Positions 52,116 through 57,483 of a stretch of DNA of 64,000 nt are shown piece by piece; within the stretch, counting starts at the first letter, position 1, and every line of letters starts with the position of its first letter. The DNA is from Rhodoferax sp. GTDB lineage: Bacteria > Pseudomonadota > Gammaproteobacteria > Burkholderiales > Burkholderiaceae_C. The DNA lies in assembly GCA_029865845.1 (NCBI GenBank), contig JARXAM010000023.1:50663-114662 (forward strand), in the 5' to 3' direction. The position numbers were made by a program, and so were the translations under genes. The notes below the pieces were generated by a model. The model was not told where the DNA came from, made no database searches, and worked only from the letters and a program-made list of their open reading frames with translations.

Positions 52116-55100
52116 TCAGGGCTTGGCGCAGTCGATGACCAGTACCGTGATCTTGTGCTTCAACTCGCGGGGTACGGTGGCAGTCAGTCGTTGTTGGAGT
52201 TCGTGCGGGGTTTTGGGCTTGTGTCCGCCGTCAGCAGCTGTGATATTTTTGAAAGCTCCGGTGAACCAAAAGACGATGTACACCCCATACCCATCGCTGC
52301 CACGCTCGCGGCTGTATTTGGCGATGAGTTGCTCGTGAACGGCTTTCCATACATCTCTATGTGAGTCTCGTTTGATCTCTATGGGTATCTGGTTCGCTCC
52401 ATACATAACTTTGATGTCTGCGCGCTTGTGCTCTGCATACGCGCCCTCTTGCTCTGCATGGACCTTTAGTGGGCCAAAGACCTTCTTGAGGTCCGACAGT
52501 AAGGCGTCACGGCAGTCGTTTTCTAGCCGAGGTGTGTCCGCGTTCCAGTACTGTGTGTAGTCGTTGGTGTTTCCGTGGCGGATTTCTCTTGCCAGTAGGT
52601 TCAACTGGTCTACCACCAGCGCATGCAAGTCTGCTGCGTTGGCCGGCTCCAGGTTGGCCAGGGTGTGGCATACCTCGGTGACGGAAGCGGGACGGAAGAG
52701 GGCTTTGCGGCGCAGGATGTTTTGTTCATAGCGCGCACGTTGGAGTCTTTCTTCCCATGGCTTGAGGGCACGCCGCCCAATCAGGTTGTCCAGCAAGCCT
52801 TGTGCTTCGTTTGAAGGACTTGATGCGAGGGCATTGATGAGATGCTGCACATAGCGAACAGTTTCTCTGGCAGGGGTCACTGTGTGAATTTCTCCGGTTT
52901 CCGTATCTTCGGGTGGCGTGAAATTTGGACCCAAATGTTCAATGAATAGTGCCGCCGCATCTAAGCTCAGCGTTGTGGAGTCATCAGATTCAAGAAAATG
53001 TCCCCTCAGCAGATCGGATGCATGTGCAGCACGAGACTGGTTGGTTCCAAGGTACTGTTTCAATTGGCTCAAGTAGAGCGTTGGTGCAACCTGAACACCT
53101 GCGGTGAGCCAATACACGCGTTGTGCAACATCCAGGTTAGCCATCGCAAGACGTTTTGCGATGAGAGAAAGTTGCTCTGAACGCGGTAGCTCGGGGAGCA
53201 CGCGCTTGATCAGCGATCGCACATACTGCAGTTGGGTTGCAGTAAGTCTGGTTGGTAGTGATTCGATAATGCTGGCTGCGATGGGGAGGCGAATGGCGTG
53301 GAGGACATCGTCATGGATAAAAGCATTCAGCCCGGACAAATGTGTAGCCTTTTTTGAAAGTTCTTTTTGGACCAAGGTTTGCAAAATGGGGGTTACCAAG
53401 TCCGGCCGTTCTTCGGTTAACTTGGCGAACCAAGTTGGCGGCGTCCGGTCTCTGCTGGTCAGCCGAAATGCAATCAGTGTTCGAAGTAGTTCCTGACGGA
53501 GGTTCAGCGCATCTGACGGTGACTCTTGAAACCTCAAATGCATTGCTGCCAAGCACGCAGCCGAGATACGAAGAAATCGACTCTCTACATGCAAATCAAG
53601 AATTTGCTTTGCATCCGGGAGATCAGTCCGATGCAAGCATTGGCGCAGCCCTTCCAGAGCCAAGTCCACCCAGTAGGTGTTTTCTTGGCAAAGTTTGAGC
53701 AATCTTTCCTCAGGGGATTTCAGGTTGCTGTTGTGCAAGGCATCCAGGTAGGCTTGCCCGATTTCTCTGAGTAAATCGAAGTGTGCTTCTTGGGTGGAGA
53801 GTTTGGGGAGCTCGGCGGCAAGAAACAGCCGCCTTTTTTGTTGGCGTTGCGTTGTCTTGTATGTGTTGTTCTGCTCGTTGATGGATAGCTGGACTTCATC
53901 AGGCGGGTAAGGTGACGACAAGATAGCGGTGTTGATCCAGTCGAGATCATTCGGGTGGTTTTCTGCCCATGACGACAAGCGATCGATTGCTGCTTCACTT
54001 CCGTCAATTTGTTTGGCAATTTCAAATGACTCGCGGATCAAGACCTTCCTCAGCTCTTCATTGCAGCTTTCGGCAAGGTGCAGATACCAGCTGGGTGCGT
54101 CGCTTGATTGGGGGGCGTTGCATAACGTGTTCCATAAGGTTTGCACGTACTTTCTTGCTAAACCTTGGGAGCCGTCAAACTTTGTTAGTCCGTATTCGAA
54201 GAGCGCTTTGTAATGTGCCGGGTGATCAATAAACCATTGGCTTAGTGCCTCGCGGTTGTCCTGTTCCAAGCCGTTTTCTCCGTAATCGCCCACGCCAAGT
54301 GATAGCCATTGGTAGACCGTTGCGGTGTCACTTATCTCGCCAAAATGAGTAACGGTTTCTACAAGCAGGTTCCCCACCATTGCAGATAGCTCATATTCAC
54401 CGCCGTCTGAGCTCAACCGGATGTTGCTTGTGACCAAGGAGTCCATCAGGTCGGGGAGCGCCTCGCGCGGTGTGTAACGCGACAGATGGCTCCAGAATTC
54501 CCATTGGCTGTTGTTGAGCTTGAGTGATCTGGGGGTGAAGTAGCCCCAGATTTCTTGGGTAGAGAGGCTGTTCGGATAAAGGTGCTTTAACAGCTCGCCC
54601 AATAGAGCGTCGTCACCGTCCTCAATGCTCTTGTTCCAGACTTGCTCCAGAAGTTCTCTTGTGATCGTCCAATCGTGGTTCGTTTGGCCTGTGATGCACA
54701 GCACTCCCAATGCGCTCTGCCGTATCTCCGAGCGGTAGGTCGCATCGCTGACTAACCGAACTAACTCGCCAGTCAAGCCCGGCATGGCTTGCCCATGCTC
54801 CATCGCCTCCAACACACAGTCCAACACCGCTTGGTGTGCGGGGCTGCGGTCAGGAGATTCGAGCCATTCCCGGAACGTGGCTTCCATGTCGGGTGTGGCC
54901 AATGCACCAAACGGTCTGCTGGCCCAGTTCTGGCTGCGAAAGTGCGCGTAGCGTTGGGCCTCGCGCTGCAAGGCTTGGAGGATGTGCTTCTTTTCGGCCA
55001 CGCTGAATCGCAACACATCGCCGTGTAGCACCAGCCCGAGTGCATCCTGGTCTATCAAGGTACGCCGGACGCTCTCATCTGTCACGACCGCCAACCATGC

Positions 55101-56156
55101 ATGCAACCCCCGCAGTTCGGGCACTACGCCACCGTCTTCGCCCTGGATGAGTGCGAGCACGCGGTTCGCGGGCAGGTGACTGCGTATCCGGTCGGCCAGA
55201 TACGTCGCGCCCAAATACTCCGCCACGGTGCGGTGCACGGGGGTGAAGTTCCCTTGGCCGTCGCTGGAAAAAAGGTGGGTATCTAGTGCTTTGTTGCAGG
55301 CATCCGTGCTCGGTGTGCCCGCACCGCCGGAAAGTAGCATGGTCAGCACCATCGTATGCGGGGTGTCCTGTTTTGGGCGCTGAAATGCAATGGCAGAGCT
55401 ACCGGATAGCAGCATGACTGCGCACAGGTAGCCTGCAGCATTTAAGAGCTGTGCATCGGGGATGGAGTTGCGGCGCTGCGCGTCGAGGTGAACTTGGTTT
55501 TGTTCTTGGACCAGTTTGGTGCAGGCTTTTTCGTACACCTCCGCCTTGCTGCGGGGCCAGCGCTCTGCGGAGTTGCCTACCGCCTCCACCAACATGCGCA
55601 GGGTTTGCGGGTTGGTGAGCAGGCCGCCCAAGTCTTTGTGATGGGCTTGGTCTACAAAAGCTTGTGCGTCTGCTTCGCTCGCTTTGAGCCAAAGGGCTGT
55701 GAATTGCAGAATCTGTGCATCGTTGAGTTCTGTCAGATGAAGCTCTGCAAACTCACCTTCGCCCGCCAGCCGCTCCAAGGCGTCGCTGTCGGTACTGCCG
55801 CGCCAGTCGGCTTCGCGGCACGAAAGGCGAAAGGGCGGGGTGTCCATAGCATTGAGTTTGATGCGGATGTCCTTCAAAGGGGATCGCCCCTCCAGTGCGG
55901 CCGCTTCATCCAGACCGTCAATGAAGATGGGGTGTCGGTAGCCGTCGGGCGGCGTGAGGTCCAGAAAGTCGCTGGCTTTGAGGTATTCGCCCCCTTCTTG
56001 TTCGGCCAAGATTTTGAAAGTCGTGGTCTTTCCTGCGCCAGGGTCCCCCAGCAGCACCCACGCGCGCAGGCTTTGGTAGTCCGCCAACGGCCTGGCCTCG
56101 GTGAGTGAGCCATCCGGCTTTCTTGCACAAACTGTCCGCTCGATGGCTAACCTCAT
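52116..56156 (-). CDS. NACHT/STAND-like P-loop NTPase with long helical region and C-terminal PD-(D/E)XK-like nuclease motif
   Basis: 1346 aa; Walker A VLLGDPGAGKTTTF, Walker B-like PIFIDGLDEAA, C-terminal RADIKVMYGANQIPIEIKRDSHRDVWKAVHEQLIAKYS...GYGVYIVFWF. Confidence 0.75.
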   Translation of the reverse strand: MRLAIERTVCARKPDGSLTEARPLADYQSLRAWVLLGDPGAGKTTTFKILAEQEGGEYLKASDFLDLTPPDGYRHPIFIDGLDEAAALEGRSPLKDIRIKLNAMDTPPFRLSCREADWRGSTDSDALERLAGEGEFAELHLTELNDAQILQFTALWLKASEADAQAFVDQAHHKDLGGLLTNPQTLRMLVEAVGNSAERWPRSKAEVYEKACTKLVQEQNQVHLDAQRRNSIPDAQLLNAAGYLCAVMLLSGSSAIAFQRPKQDTPHTMVLTMLLSGGAGTPSTDACNKALDTHLFSSDGQGNFTPVHRTVAEYLGATYLADRIRSHLPANRVLALIQGEDGGVVPELRGLHAWLAVVTDESVRRTLIDQDALGLVLHGDVLRFSVAEKKHILQALQREAQRYAHFRSQNWASRPFGALATPDMEATFREWLESPDRSPAHQAVLDCVLEAMEHGQAMPGLTGELVRLVSDATYRSEIRQSALGVLCITGQTNHDWTITRELLEQVWNKSIEDGDDALLGELLKHLYPNSLSTQEIWGYFTPRSLKLNNSQWEFWSHLSRYTPREALPDLMDSLVTSNIRLSSDGGEYELSAMVGNLLVETVTHFGEISDTATVYQWLSLGVGDYGENGLEQDNREALSQWFIDHPAHYKALFEYGLTKFDGSQGLARKYVQTLWNTLCNAPQSSDAPSWYLHLAESCNEELRKVLIRESFEIAKQIDGSEAAIDRLSSWAENHPNDLDWINTAILSSPYPPDEVQLSINEQNNTYKTTQRQQKRRLFLAAELPKLSTQEAHFDLLREIGQAYLDALHNSNLKSPEERLLKLCQENTYWVDLALEGLRQCLHRTDLPDAKQILDLHVESRFLRISAACLAAMHLRFQESPSDALNLRQELLRTLIAFRLTSRDRTPPTWFAKLTEERPDLVTPILQTLVQKELSKKATHLSGLNAFIHDDVLHAIRLPIAASIIESLPTRLTATQLQYVRSLIKRVLPELPRSEQLSLIAKRLAMANLDVAQRVYWLTAGVQVAPTLYLSQLKQYLGTNQSRAAHASDLLRGHFLESDDSTTLSLDAAALFIEHLGPNFTPPEDTETGEIHTVTPARETVRYVQHLINALASSPSNEAQGLLDNLIGRRALKPWEERLQRARYEQNILRRKALFRPASVTEVCHTLANLEPANAADLHALVVDQLNLLAREIRHGNTNDYTQYWNADTPRLENDCRDALLSDLKKVFGPLKVHAEQEGAYAEHKRADIKVMYGANQIPIEIKRDSHRDVWKAVHEQLIAKYSRERGSDGYGVYIVFWFTGAFKNITAADGGHKPKTPHELQQRLTATVPRELKHKITVLVIDCAKP

Positions 56157-57430
56157 GCTGCCTCTAGCCAGTGCGTTAGCGGATACGACAAAAACTCCGT
56201 CAGGTTTACGCCACCCGTGCCCACCAGCAGCGTGTTGCTGCCGTTGTGCTGCTTGGCGAACTCGTTCATACCGCCGAGGGCGCCTACGCTGGGGCCGCTC
56301 TTCACTTCGATGGCAGTGCGGCGCAGTGCGTCGTTGATGACAAAGTCAACTTCATAGGGGCTTTCGCGCCAGTAGCCGATCTCCTCATGGGGGCGAGCGC
56401 TGTTACAAAGGTGTGCGCCAACACTACTCTCTACCAGTCGGCCCCAGTAGCTGCGATCGGCTTGCGCTTGGGCAAATGTGTAGGGTGTGGCGCTGGACAT
56501 GAGCGCCGTGTTGAGTACCTGAAACTTGGGCGCCGACGCACGTTTGCGGGCTGCTCCTACGTGGTACTTTTGCAAGCCCATGAGCAGGCCCGCATTTCCC
56601 AGCAGATCTAGATAACCCGCCAGCGTGGTTTCGTTGCCCGCGTCTTGCAATTGGCCTTTCACTTTGCCCAGCGCCAAAATTTGGCCGGAGTAAATGGAGC
56701 CTAAGGTGAATAGCTGCTTGAGCAGCGCGGGTTTATCCACGCGCGCCATTTGAAGAATGTCGGTTTCAATGCTGGGCTGCACCAAGCTGGCCAGCACGTA
56801 GTTACGCCAGCGCTCTTCGTCTCGGATGAGTGGGGCGCTGCCGGGATAGCCGCCAAAATAGATGTACTCATGGAGGTTGAAGTCAAAGGCGTGGTGCATT
56901 TCTACAAAAGACCAATGTGCGGCGCGAATCAGCTCGTAGCGTCCGGTCAAACTTTCGGTCAGGCCCTTTTGAAGGAGAAGGGGCGAACTGCCCAGTAGCA
57001 CCACGTGCATGGGCAGGCCACGTGCGCGGTCGGCGTCCCATAGGCCCTTGACGGTGTCGGGCCAGCGGGGAATCTTCTGAATTTCATCCAGAACCAACAC
57101 GAACGGCGAACTCGGGTTCCTTTCATGGTGTGCTTCGCACTCCGCGCGAGCGGATTGCCAGGTCCTAACCAGCCACGCGGCATTGCGGGGGATGCCGTCT
57201 ATGTCGGCTGTTTCATACCCGTTGATTCCCCAAGGAGGCATTGACAAGTTGCGTGTCCAAGGCTCTCCATCGGGGTCTACCGACACAAAGCGGTGCGCCA
57301 GGTCTTCAATCGCTTGGCGAACCATCGTGGTCTTTCCGACTTGGCGAGGCCCCGCCACCATCGTTATGAAACGAGGGACTTCTTGCAGTCGGTTTTTGAG
57401 CGTTTGAACGTGTGGACGTTGAAAGTTCAT
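56153..57430 (-). CDS. AAA ATPase with DUF4143-type C-terminal domain
   Basis: 425 aa; Walker A VAGPRQVGKTTMV, Walker B FVLVLDEIQKIPRW, YWRESPYEVDFVINDALRRTAIEVKSG. Confidence 0.88.
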   Translation of the reverse strand: MNFQRPHVQTLKNRLQEVPRFITMVAGPRQVGKTTMVRQAIEDLAHRFVSVDPDGEPWTRNLSMPPWGINGYETADIDGIPRNAAWLVRTWQSARAECEAHHERNPSSPFVLVLDEIQKIPRWPDTVKGLWDADRARGLPMHVVLLGSSPLLLQKGLTESLTGRYELIRAAHWSFVEMHHAFDFNLHEYIYFGGYPGSAPLIRDEERWRNYVLASLVQPSIETDILQMARVDKPALLKQLFTLGSIYSGQILALGKVKGQLQDAGNETTLAGYLDLLGNAGLLMGLQKYHVGAARKRASAPKFQVLNTALMSSATPYTFAQAQADRSYWGRLVESSVGAHLCNSARPHEEIGYWRESPYEVDFVINDALRRTAIEVKSGPSVGALGGMNEFAKQHNGSNTLLVGTGGVNLTEFLSYPLTHWLEAA

Positions 57431-57460
57431 ACATTGTGAGTAAATTTACTCACAATGTAT
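57429..57460. promoter_or_regulatory. Perfect 32-bp palindrome at the start of the DUF4143/NACHT operon
   Basis: ATACATTGTGAGTAAATTTACTCACAATGTAT is identical to its reverse complement; includes first two bases of the start codon at 57430. Confidence 0.95.
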
Positions 57461-57483
57461 TCTCTTTGTGCTGGGTGCGTCAA
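57454..57483 (-). promoter_or_regulatory. Candidate sigma70-type promoter for the DUF4143/NACHT operon
   Basis: Minus strand TTGACG - 18 nt - TACATT; -10 box lies inside the palindrome. Confidence 0.45.

Follow-up and report, generated by a model that had tools for sequence, protein, structure and literature searches.

A conserved palindrome at the start of AAA_14-DUF4143 (PDC-S01) genes, a probable autoregulatory operator

Results

A perfect palindrome covers the start of a DUF4143 gene

A DUF4143 gene of Rhodoferax sp. begins within a perfect palindrome, the core of which, TGAGTAAATTTACTCA, is found at the starts of homologous genes in many phyla. We infer, at a probability of about 0.77, that the palindrome is an operator and that the DUF4143 protein binds it and thereby represses its own gene. 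The analysis was centred on a stretch of 64,000 nucleotides, called the window below, in which the following features were located.

52116-56156, minus strand: EruA-like NACHT NTPase, 1346 aa (NCBIfam NF058535; pair kept in relatives)
56153-57430, minus strand: AAA_14-DUF4143 ATPase, 425 aa, PADLOC PDC-S01, proposed autorepressor (Pfam AAA_14 3e-20, DUF4143 4e-22; PADLOC PDLC04791)
56219-56455, minus strand: PD-(D/E)XK nuclease-like region, residues 326-404, activity predicted (model; alignment invariants E360, D362, E375 and K377 in 66 sequences)
56567-56731, minus strand: predicted winged helix-turn-helix, residues 234-288, with recognition helix 267-279 (AlphaFold2 model and alignment)
57428-57430, minus strand: start codon (ATG) of the DUF4143 gene, sharing its first two bases with the end of the palindrome (ORF and alignment)
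57429-57460, no strand: perfect 32-bp palindrome, the extended operator dyad (exact match, unique)
57437-57452, no strand: operator core TGAGTAAATTTACTCA, half-sites TGAGTAA / TTACTCA (the sole longer block identical in the upstream DNA of the 91% and 75% orthologues; many phyla)
57454-57459, minus strand: putative -10 box TACATT, within a palindrome arm (promoter scan, 9/12 matches, predicted)
57478-57483, minus strand: putative -35 box TTGACG (promoter scan; TTGAC kept in both close orthologues)

The palindrome, ATACATTGTGAGTAAATTTACTCACAATGTAT, equals its own reverse complement over all 32 bp, as the sequence-only reading had claimed, and is the best inverted repeat of the whole 64 kb. No further copy within 3 mismatches was present in the window, and shuffles gave 0. 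By our own arithmetic, a perfect 32-bp palindrome is expected by chance at 4^-16 per position, or about 1.5e-5 per 64 kb; its 18-bp core occurs only once in the 2.7-Mb host assembly, even when 3 mismatches are allowed.

Three further statements of that reading were also confirmed for the minus strand: the palindrome ends in the A and T that open the start codon of ORF 56153-57430, a TTGACG-N18-TACATT promoter candidate is present at 57483-57454, and no Shine-Dalgarno lies directly upstream of this ATG. The start codon is supported because it is closely followed by the conserved residues R5, R14 and E17 (each at least 90% in 66 homologues) and because there is no upstream in-frame start. Taken by itself, the putative -10 box is weak (4/6). 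An intrinsic terminator, as which a scan calls the palindrome on the plus strand, was rejected, since the T-rich tail is inconsistent among homologous sites and tsaB is divergent from the DUF4143 gene.

The DUF4143 protein matches PADLOC model PDLC04791 over its full length (3.3e-159, residues 1-422 of 425), and its Walker A/B residues G27, G32, K33, D115 and E116 are invariant in 66 sequences. PDC-S01, a PADLOC candidate in which an ATPase is fused to PD-(D/E)XK, is a single-gene system, whereas the copy in the window has a NACHT partner, the gene of which overlaps the DUF4143 stop by 4 nt and belongs to the same operon. The NACHT protein matches NF058535 (EruA) end to end (7-1343 of 1346, 945.8 bits) and, falling below the curated cut-off of 1000 bits, is called EruA-like and not filed as EruA; this NACHT antiphage family is unrelated to the E. 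coli regulator that bears the name EruA in papers. Unlike EruA as such, the NACHT gene of the window follows, and is coupled to, a PDC-S01 gene that has an operator of its own.

Two species of this genus and two less closely related Pseudomonadota retain the DUF4143-NACHT pair; in L167, one of its loci, it occupies the same position, between tsaB and dacB. A comparison of the window (52116-57430) with L167 (5784-11122), from another species of the genus, gave 91% identity for the DUF4143 protein but 63% for the NACHT protein, with the flanking dacB and tsaB at 71.5% and about 70%, so that the proposed regulator is more conserved than its housekeeping neighbours and the NACHT protein diverges faster. 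The tsaB gene of L167 (5003-5674) is apparently frameshifted (two frames), perhaps through an assembly error.

The core recurs at PDC-S01 genes in many phyla

Little of the upstream DNA is shared with the orthologues of 91% and 75% identity beyond TTGAC, TGAGTAAATTTACTCA and a few bases at the ATG, and the outer palindrome arms differ. The unit kept between close orthologues is the 16-bp core at 57437-57452, narrower than the full 32 bp.

An unbiased pattern scan for KTGAGTAAAWTTACTCAM in the GTDB collection (one genome per species, about 85,000 species) returned at least 115 stretches from many phyla. A profile was built from the first matches and a DUF4143 gene start was accepted at -60 to +200; by this measure 78 of the 117 core sites among the matches listed lie directly upstream of an AAA_14-DUF4143 gene. 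Several more of these 117 adjoin truncated DUF4143 genes or remnants, and many of the 39 listed sites with no detectable intact gene are probably due to chance. The sequence-only reading had proposed to check whether other DUF4143/NACHT operons are preceded by the palindrome, and such sites were found.

Sites at up to 2 mismatches were rare in 101 relatives, the best of them being at the DUF4143 gene, and in 14 gene- or motif-bearing genomes nearly all sites with 0-1 mismatch adjoined the gene or what remains of it, with one site in G179:C230 as the exception. Judged by the site distribution in these 14 genomes, the TGAGTAA operator has a regulon of one. From sequence, TGAGTAAATTTACTCA is read as a pan-bacterial cis-element of one AAA_14-DUF4143 clade (PDC-S01).

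Two slices of 8 kb, L122 and L098, have two motif sites each, more than 1 kb apart, with an intact gene start at just one of them. In L018 (1480-1700), an orphan operator array is followed by a frameshifted, decayed PDC-S01 remnant, RIQIVSGPHGVGKTTAVQQ, read by eye. A phage origin was considered and rejected: viral contigs yielded few loci (15) with relatives of the protein, even the closest being mostly below 30% identity, and none of 100 site-bearing stretches of viral contigs carried the DUF4143 gene.

Two operator layouts and their relation to the promoter

In most relatives (class I), the operator is a tandem array in which the half-sites TTACTCA/TGAGTAA recur at exactly 22 bp (consensus TTTACTCAATGTATTGAGTAAAtTTACTCAATATATTGAGTAAA). 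Over 60 loci, the median distance from the ATG to the dyad centre is 31 nt, TGAGTAA being found at offsets -27, -5, +17 and +39 and TTACTCA at -40, -18, +4 and +26. The period was also found in homologues fetched by protein and not by motif: for 11 of these 16, lag 22 came out best among lags 12-39. A -35 box (at least 5/6) lies 17-18 nt upstream of the dyad-centre TAAAWT in 13 of 51 class I loci, compared with at most 2 elsewhere; therefore, the dyad centre is the likely -10.

Class II, to which the window belongs, has one long dyad instead (consensus GATTACGCTATTGAGTAAATTTACTCAATAGCGTAAT) and forms a single clade (100/100) with members in Pseudomonadota, Actinomycetota, Nitrospinota, Chloroflexota and Binatota. 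A NACHT gene lies downstream in 13 of 13 testable class II loci, the retrieved slice of the 14th being too short to tell, and none was seen at any class I locus. The outer arms vary between class II loci and yet are self-complementary (symmetry 0.88 within versus 0.52 between, 0/10000 permutations), a pattern that fits a symmetric protein-bound site and that a hairpin or quasi-palindrome correction could also yield. By these sequence comparisons the NACHT gene appears as a clade-specific passenger, associated with a different operator layout. The term toxic effector operon, applied to the locus earlier, fits just partly: the gene is NACHT-coupled in the clade of the window, but the operator mostly accompanies DUF4143 genes that stand alone.

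Other palindromes occur at the starts of DUF4143 genes. The second DUF4143 paralogue of the host has a different one, TGGTTGAAAATCAACCA, about 20-40 nt before its ATG (L166, G000:C80), and other DUF4143 clades show further ones: in 16 of 61 upstream regions the best palindrome was reached by none of 20 shuffles, with about 3 such regions expected. Clade-specific operators may be general in PDC-S01. Unrelated start-proximal palindromes, such as AATAGTCTTGACTATT and ACAGATTGTAAGTTGAACTTACAATCTGT, were seen in L208, L215, L219 and L227, and also in L173, L155, L245 and L246. In L255, a relative from a viral contig, three TTTGAGAATTTT repeats at 22-bp spacing upstream of 336 replace the TGAGTAA dyad.

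A predicted winged helix accompanies the operator

The AlphaFold2 model of the DUF4143 protein (mean pLDDT 91.4, pTM 0.90) contains a helical triad (234-246, 254-260 and 267-279) and a strand (283-288) ahead of the PD-(D/E)XK-like domain, together read as a predicted winged helix. The nearest solved folds are the archaeal AAA+ ATPases 2qen and 2fna, followed by the Orc1/Cdc6 family, some of them DNA-bound.

Where the half-site is TGAGTAA, the recognition helix is near-constant, NTTTLAHYL. Three divergent members have NTDLVKHYL, NTDLIKHYL and NVEIIKHYL with half-sites CTAGTAA, CTATCA and CCTAT-ATAGG, respectively, and keep the 22-bp period despite the altered half-sites; as the three form one clade, the change in helix and half-site counts as about one event and is phylogenetically confounded. 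Order-level and viral searches for further members of this variant-operator clade (L011-L013) added almost nothing, with one extra order-level match. At helix position 272, 13 of 14 class II proteins have R or G and class I proteins have H, N, A, E or T, a contrast that comes from one clade, class II.

Autorepression and its alternatives

The features expected of an autoregulatory operator are thus found together: an inverted repeat over the predicted promoter of its own gene, conserved in relatives, and a predicted DNA-binding domain, the winged helix 234-288, in the product. The earlier proposal of such an operator finds strong comparative support in the same core at homologous gene starts in many phyla and in half-site variants that track recognition-helix variants. 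Its remark that there is no separate repressor gene agrees with the relatives, in which no regulator gene is conserved beside the core: when neighbouring ORFs of the motif-selected loci were clustered, nothing besides NACHT was conserved in more than two loci, and a separate regulator is therefore unlikely. Under autorepression, the protein would contact both inverted TGAGTAA half-sites through its winged helix, in the form of a symmetric dimer or a higher oligomer, the tandem array at a 22-bp period (about two helical turns) suggesting oligomeric binding. The bound protein would cover the -10/transcription-start region and repress its own promoter, in the window together with the coupled NACHT gene, and ATP or infection might relieve the repression.

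The palindrome could also act in the mRNA, as the sequence-only reading had suggested in parallel, with a hairpin hiding the start codon and providing translational control. The strand in the window does fold well (-23.3 kcal/mol, z -5.5), as does that of L017 (z -4.4), and the arms of the NACHT clade covary as those of a hairpin would. This mechanism is nevertheless highly unlikely, because the hairpin is lost in the closest orthologue, the 91% orthologue L016 (z -0.73), which nonetheless keeps the 16-bp core, and because the predicted transcript starts lie inside the dyad or at its right edge; the 5' arm would therefore be untranscribed, and the truncated RNA does not fold. Moreover, the conservation covers the TGAGTAA sequence itself, beyond mere pairing, a hairpin would have no use for direct repeats of the half-site every 22 bp, and the central dyad of the relatives is the likely -10.

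It is improbable that the operator serves another, host-encoded regulator instead of the DUF4143 protein. Binding by the latter is our reading of the locus, and in any single genome a global regulator could take its place, but the site adjoins the DUF4143 gene in many phyla with no other conserved neighbour, and per-genome sites are almost exclusively at this gene. The different palindrome at the paralogue in the same genome also argues against a host regulator, and operator variants follow the clade of the DUF4143 protein. Quite improbable, too, is that the site is mainly one for autoactivation or loading, comparable to the origin boxes beside Orc1/Cdc6 genes, and not for repression. An AAA+ protein with a winged helix and matches to the Orc1/Cdc6-like fold would suit such a role, and an array of several sites could seed an oligomer of the ATPase; against it, the dyad of many loci extends over the likely -10, which is the usual place for repression, and there are no distal sites. 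Barely credible is a mobile-cassette end or insertion target, or a functionless perfection produced by quasi-palindrome correction. The family is patchy and decaying, as in the orphan operator of L018 with its frameshifted remnant, and template switching could perfect outer arms; however, a second copy at the 3' end is absent from the window at up to 3 mismatches, the position relative to the ATG is fixed across phyla and flanks, and both the 22-bp architecture and the core sequence are conserved.

Autorepression may have a further side, which we consider unlikely, namely that the operator doubles as a defence sensor. Healthy cells would hold oligomers of the PDC-S01 ATPase on their own half-site array, and phage takeover, through ATP loss, DNA modification or degradation, or competing DNA, would dislodge them. 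This would at once derepress the gene (and the NACHT partner where present) and free the nuclease-domain protein to act, and the co-divergence of operator and recognition helix would insulate paralogues of the same cell from each other.

Discussion

PDC-S01 is reported to rank fourth in frequency among the defence systems of prokaryotes, and most such candidates await experimental validation (PMC12988326). No account of its operator, regulation or working mechanism was found in a literature search that covered few subscription journals.

Repression of a defence-operon promoter by a DNA-binding protein through inverted repeats is known from AbiE, with AbiEi, and from the controller proteins of R-M systems. 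The same is described for the autoregulated defence module RptR (PMC12255303). In contrast to these three, the putative repressor here is an ATPase that also has a nuclease-like domain, and its gene makes up the whole system in most relatives. The AAA+ plus winged-helix fold is shared with archaeal Orc1/Cdc6 and archaeal AAA+ ATPases (2qen, 2fna, 2qby and 2v1u), but identity to 2qen and 2fna is 14-15% and the DUF4143 protein adds a C-terminal nuclease-like domain. The boxes bound by Orc1/Cdc6 are inverted repeats too, often close to the gene that encodes it; the site of the DUF4143 protein, by comparison, lies on the promoter. Autoregulated defence operons are already known; an ATPase-nuclease with an operator of its own in many phyla is a new variation on them.

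The conserved operator supplies a candidate specific DNA ligand of the protein, a likely oligomeric spacing (22 bp), a recognition helix and a reporter-ready promoter, and offers a first handle on the control of a very common candidate anti-phage family. Given this operator, the PDC-S01 ATPases, annotated just as ATPase-nuclease fusions, are probably transcription regulators as well.
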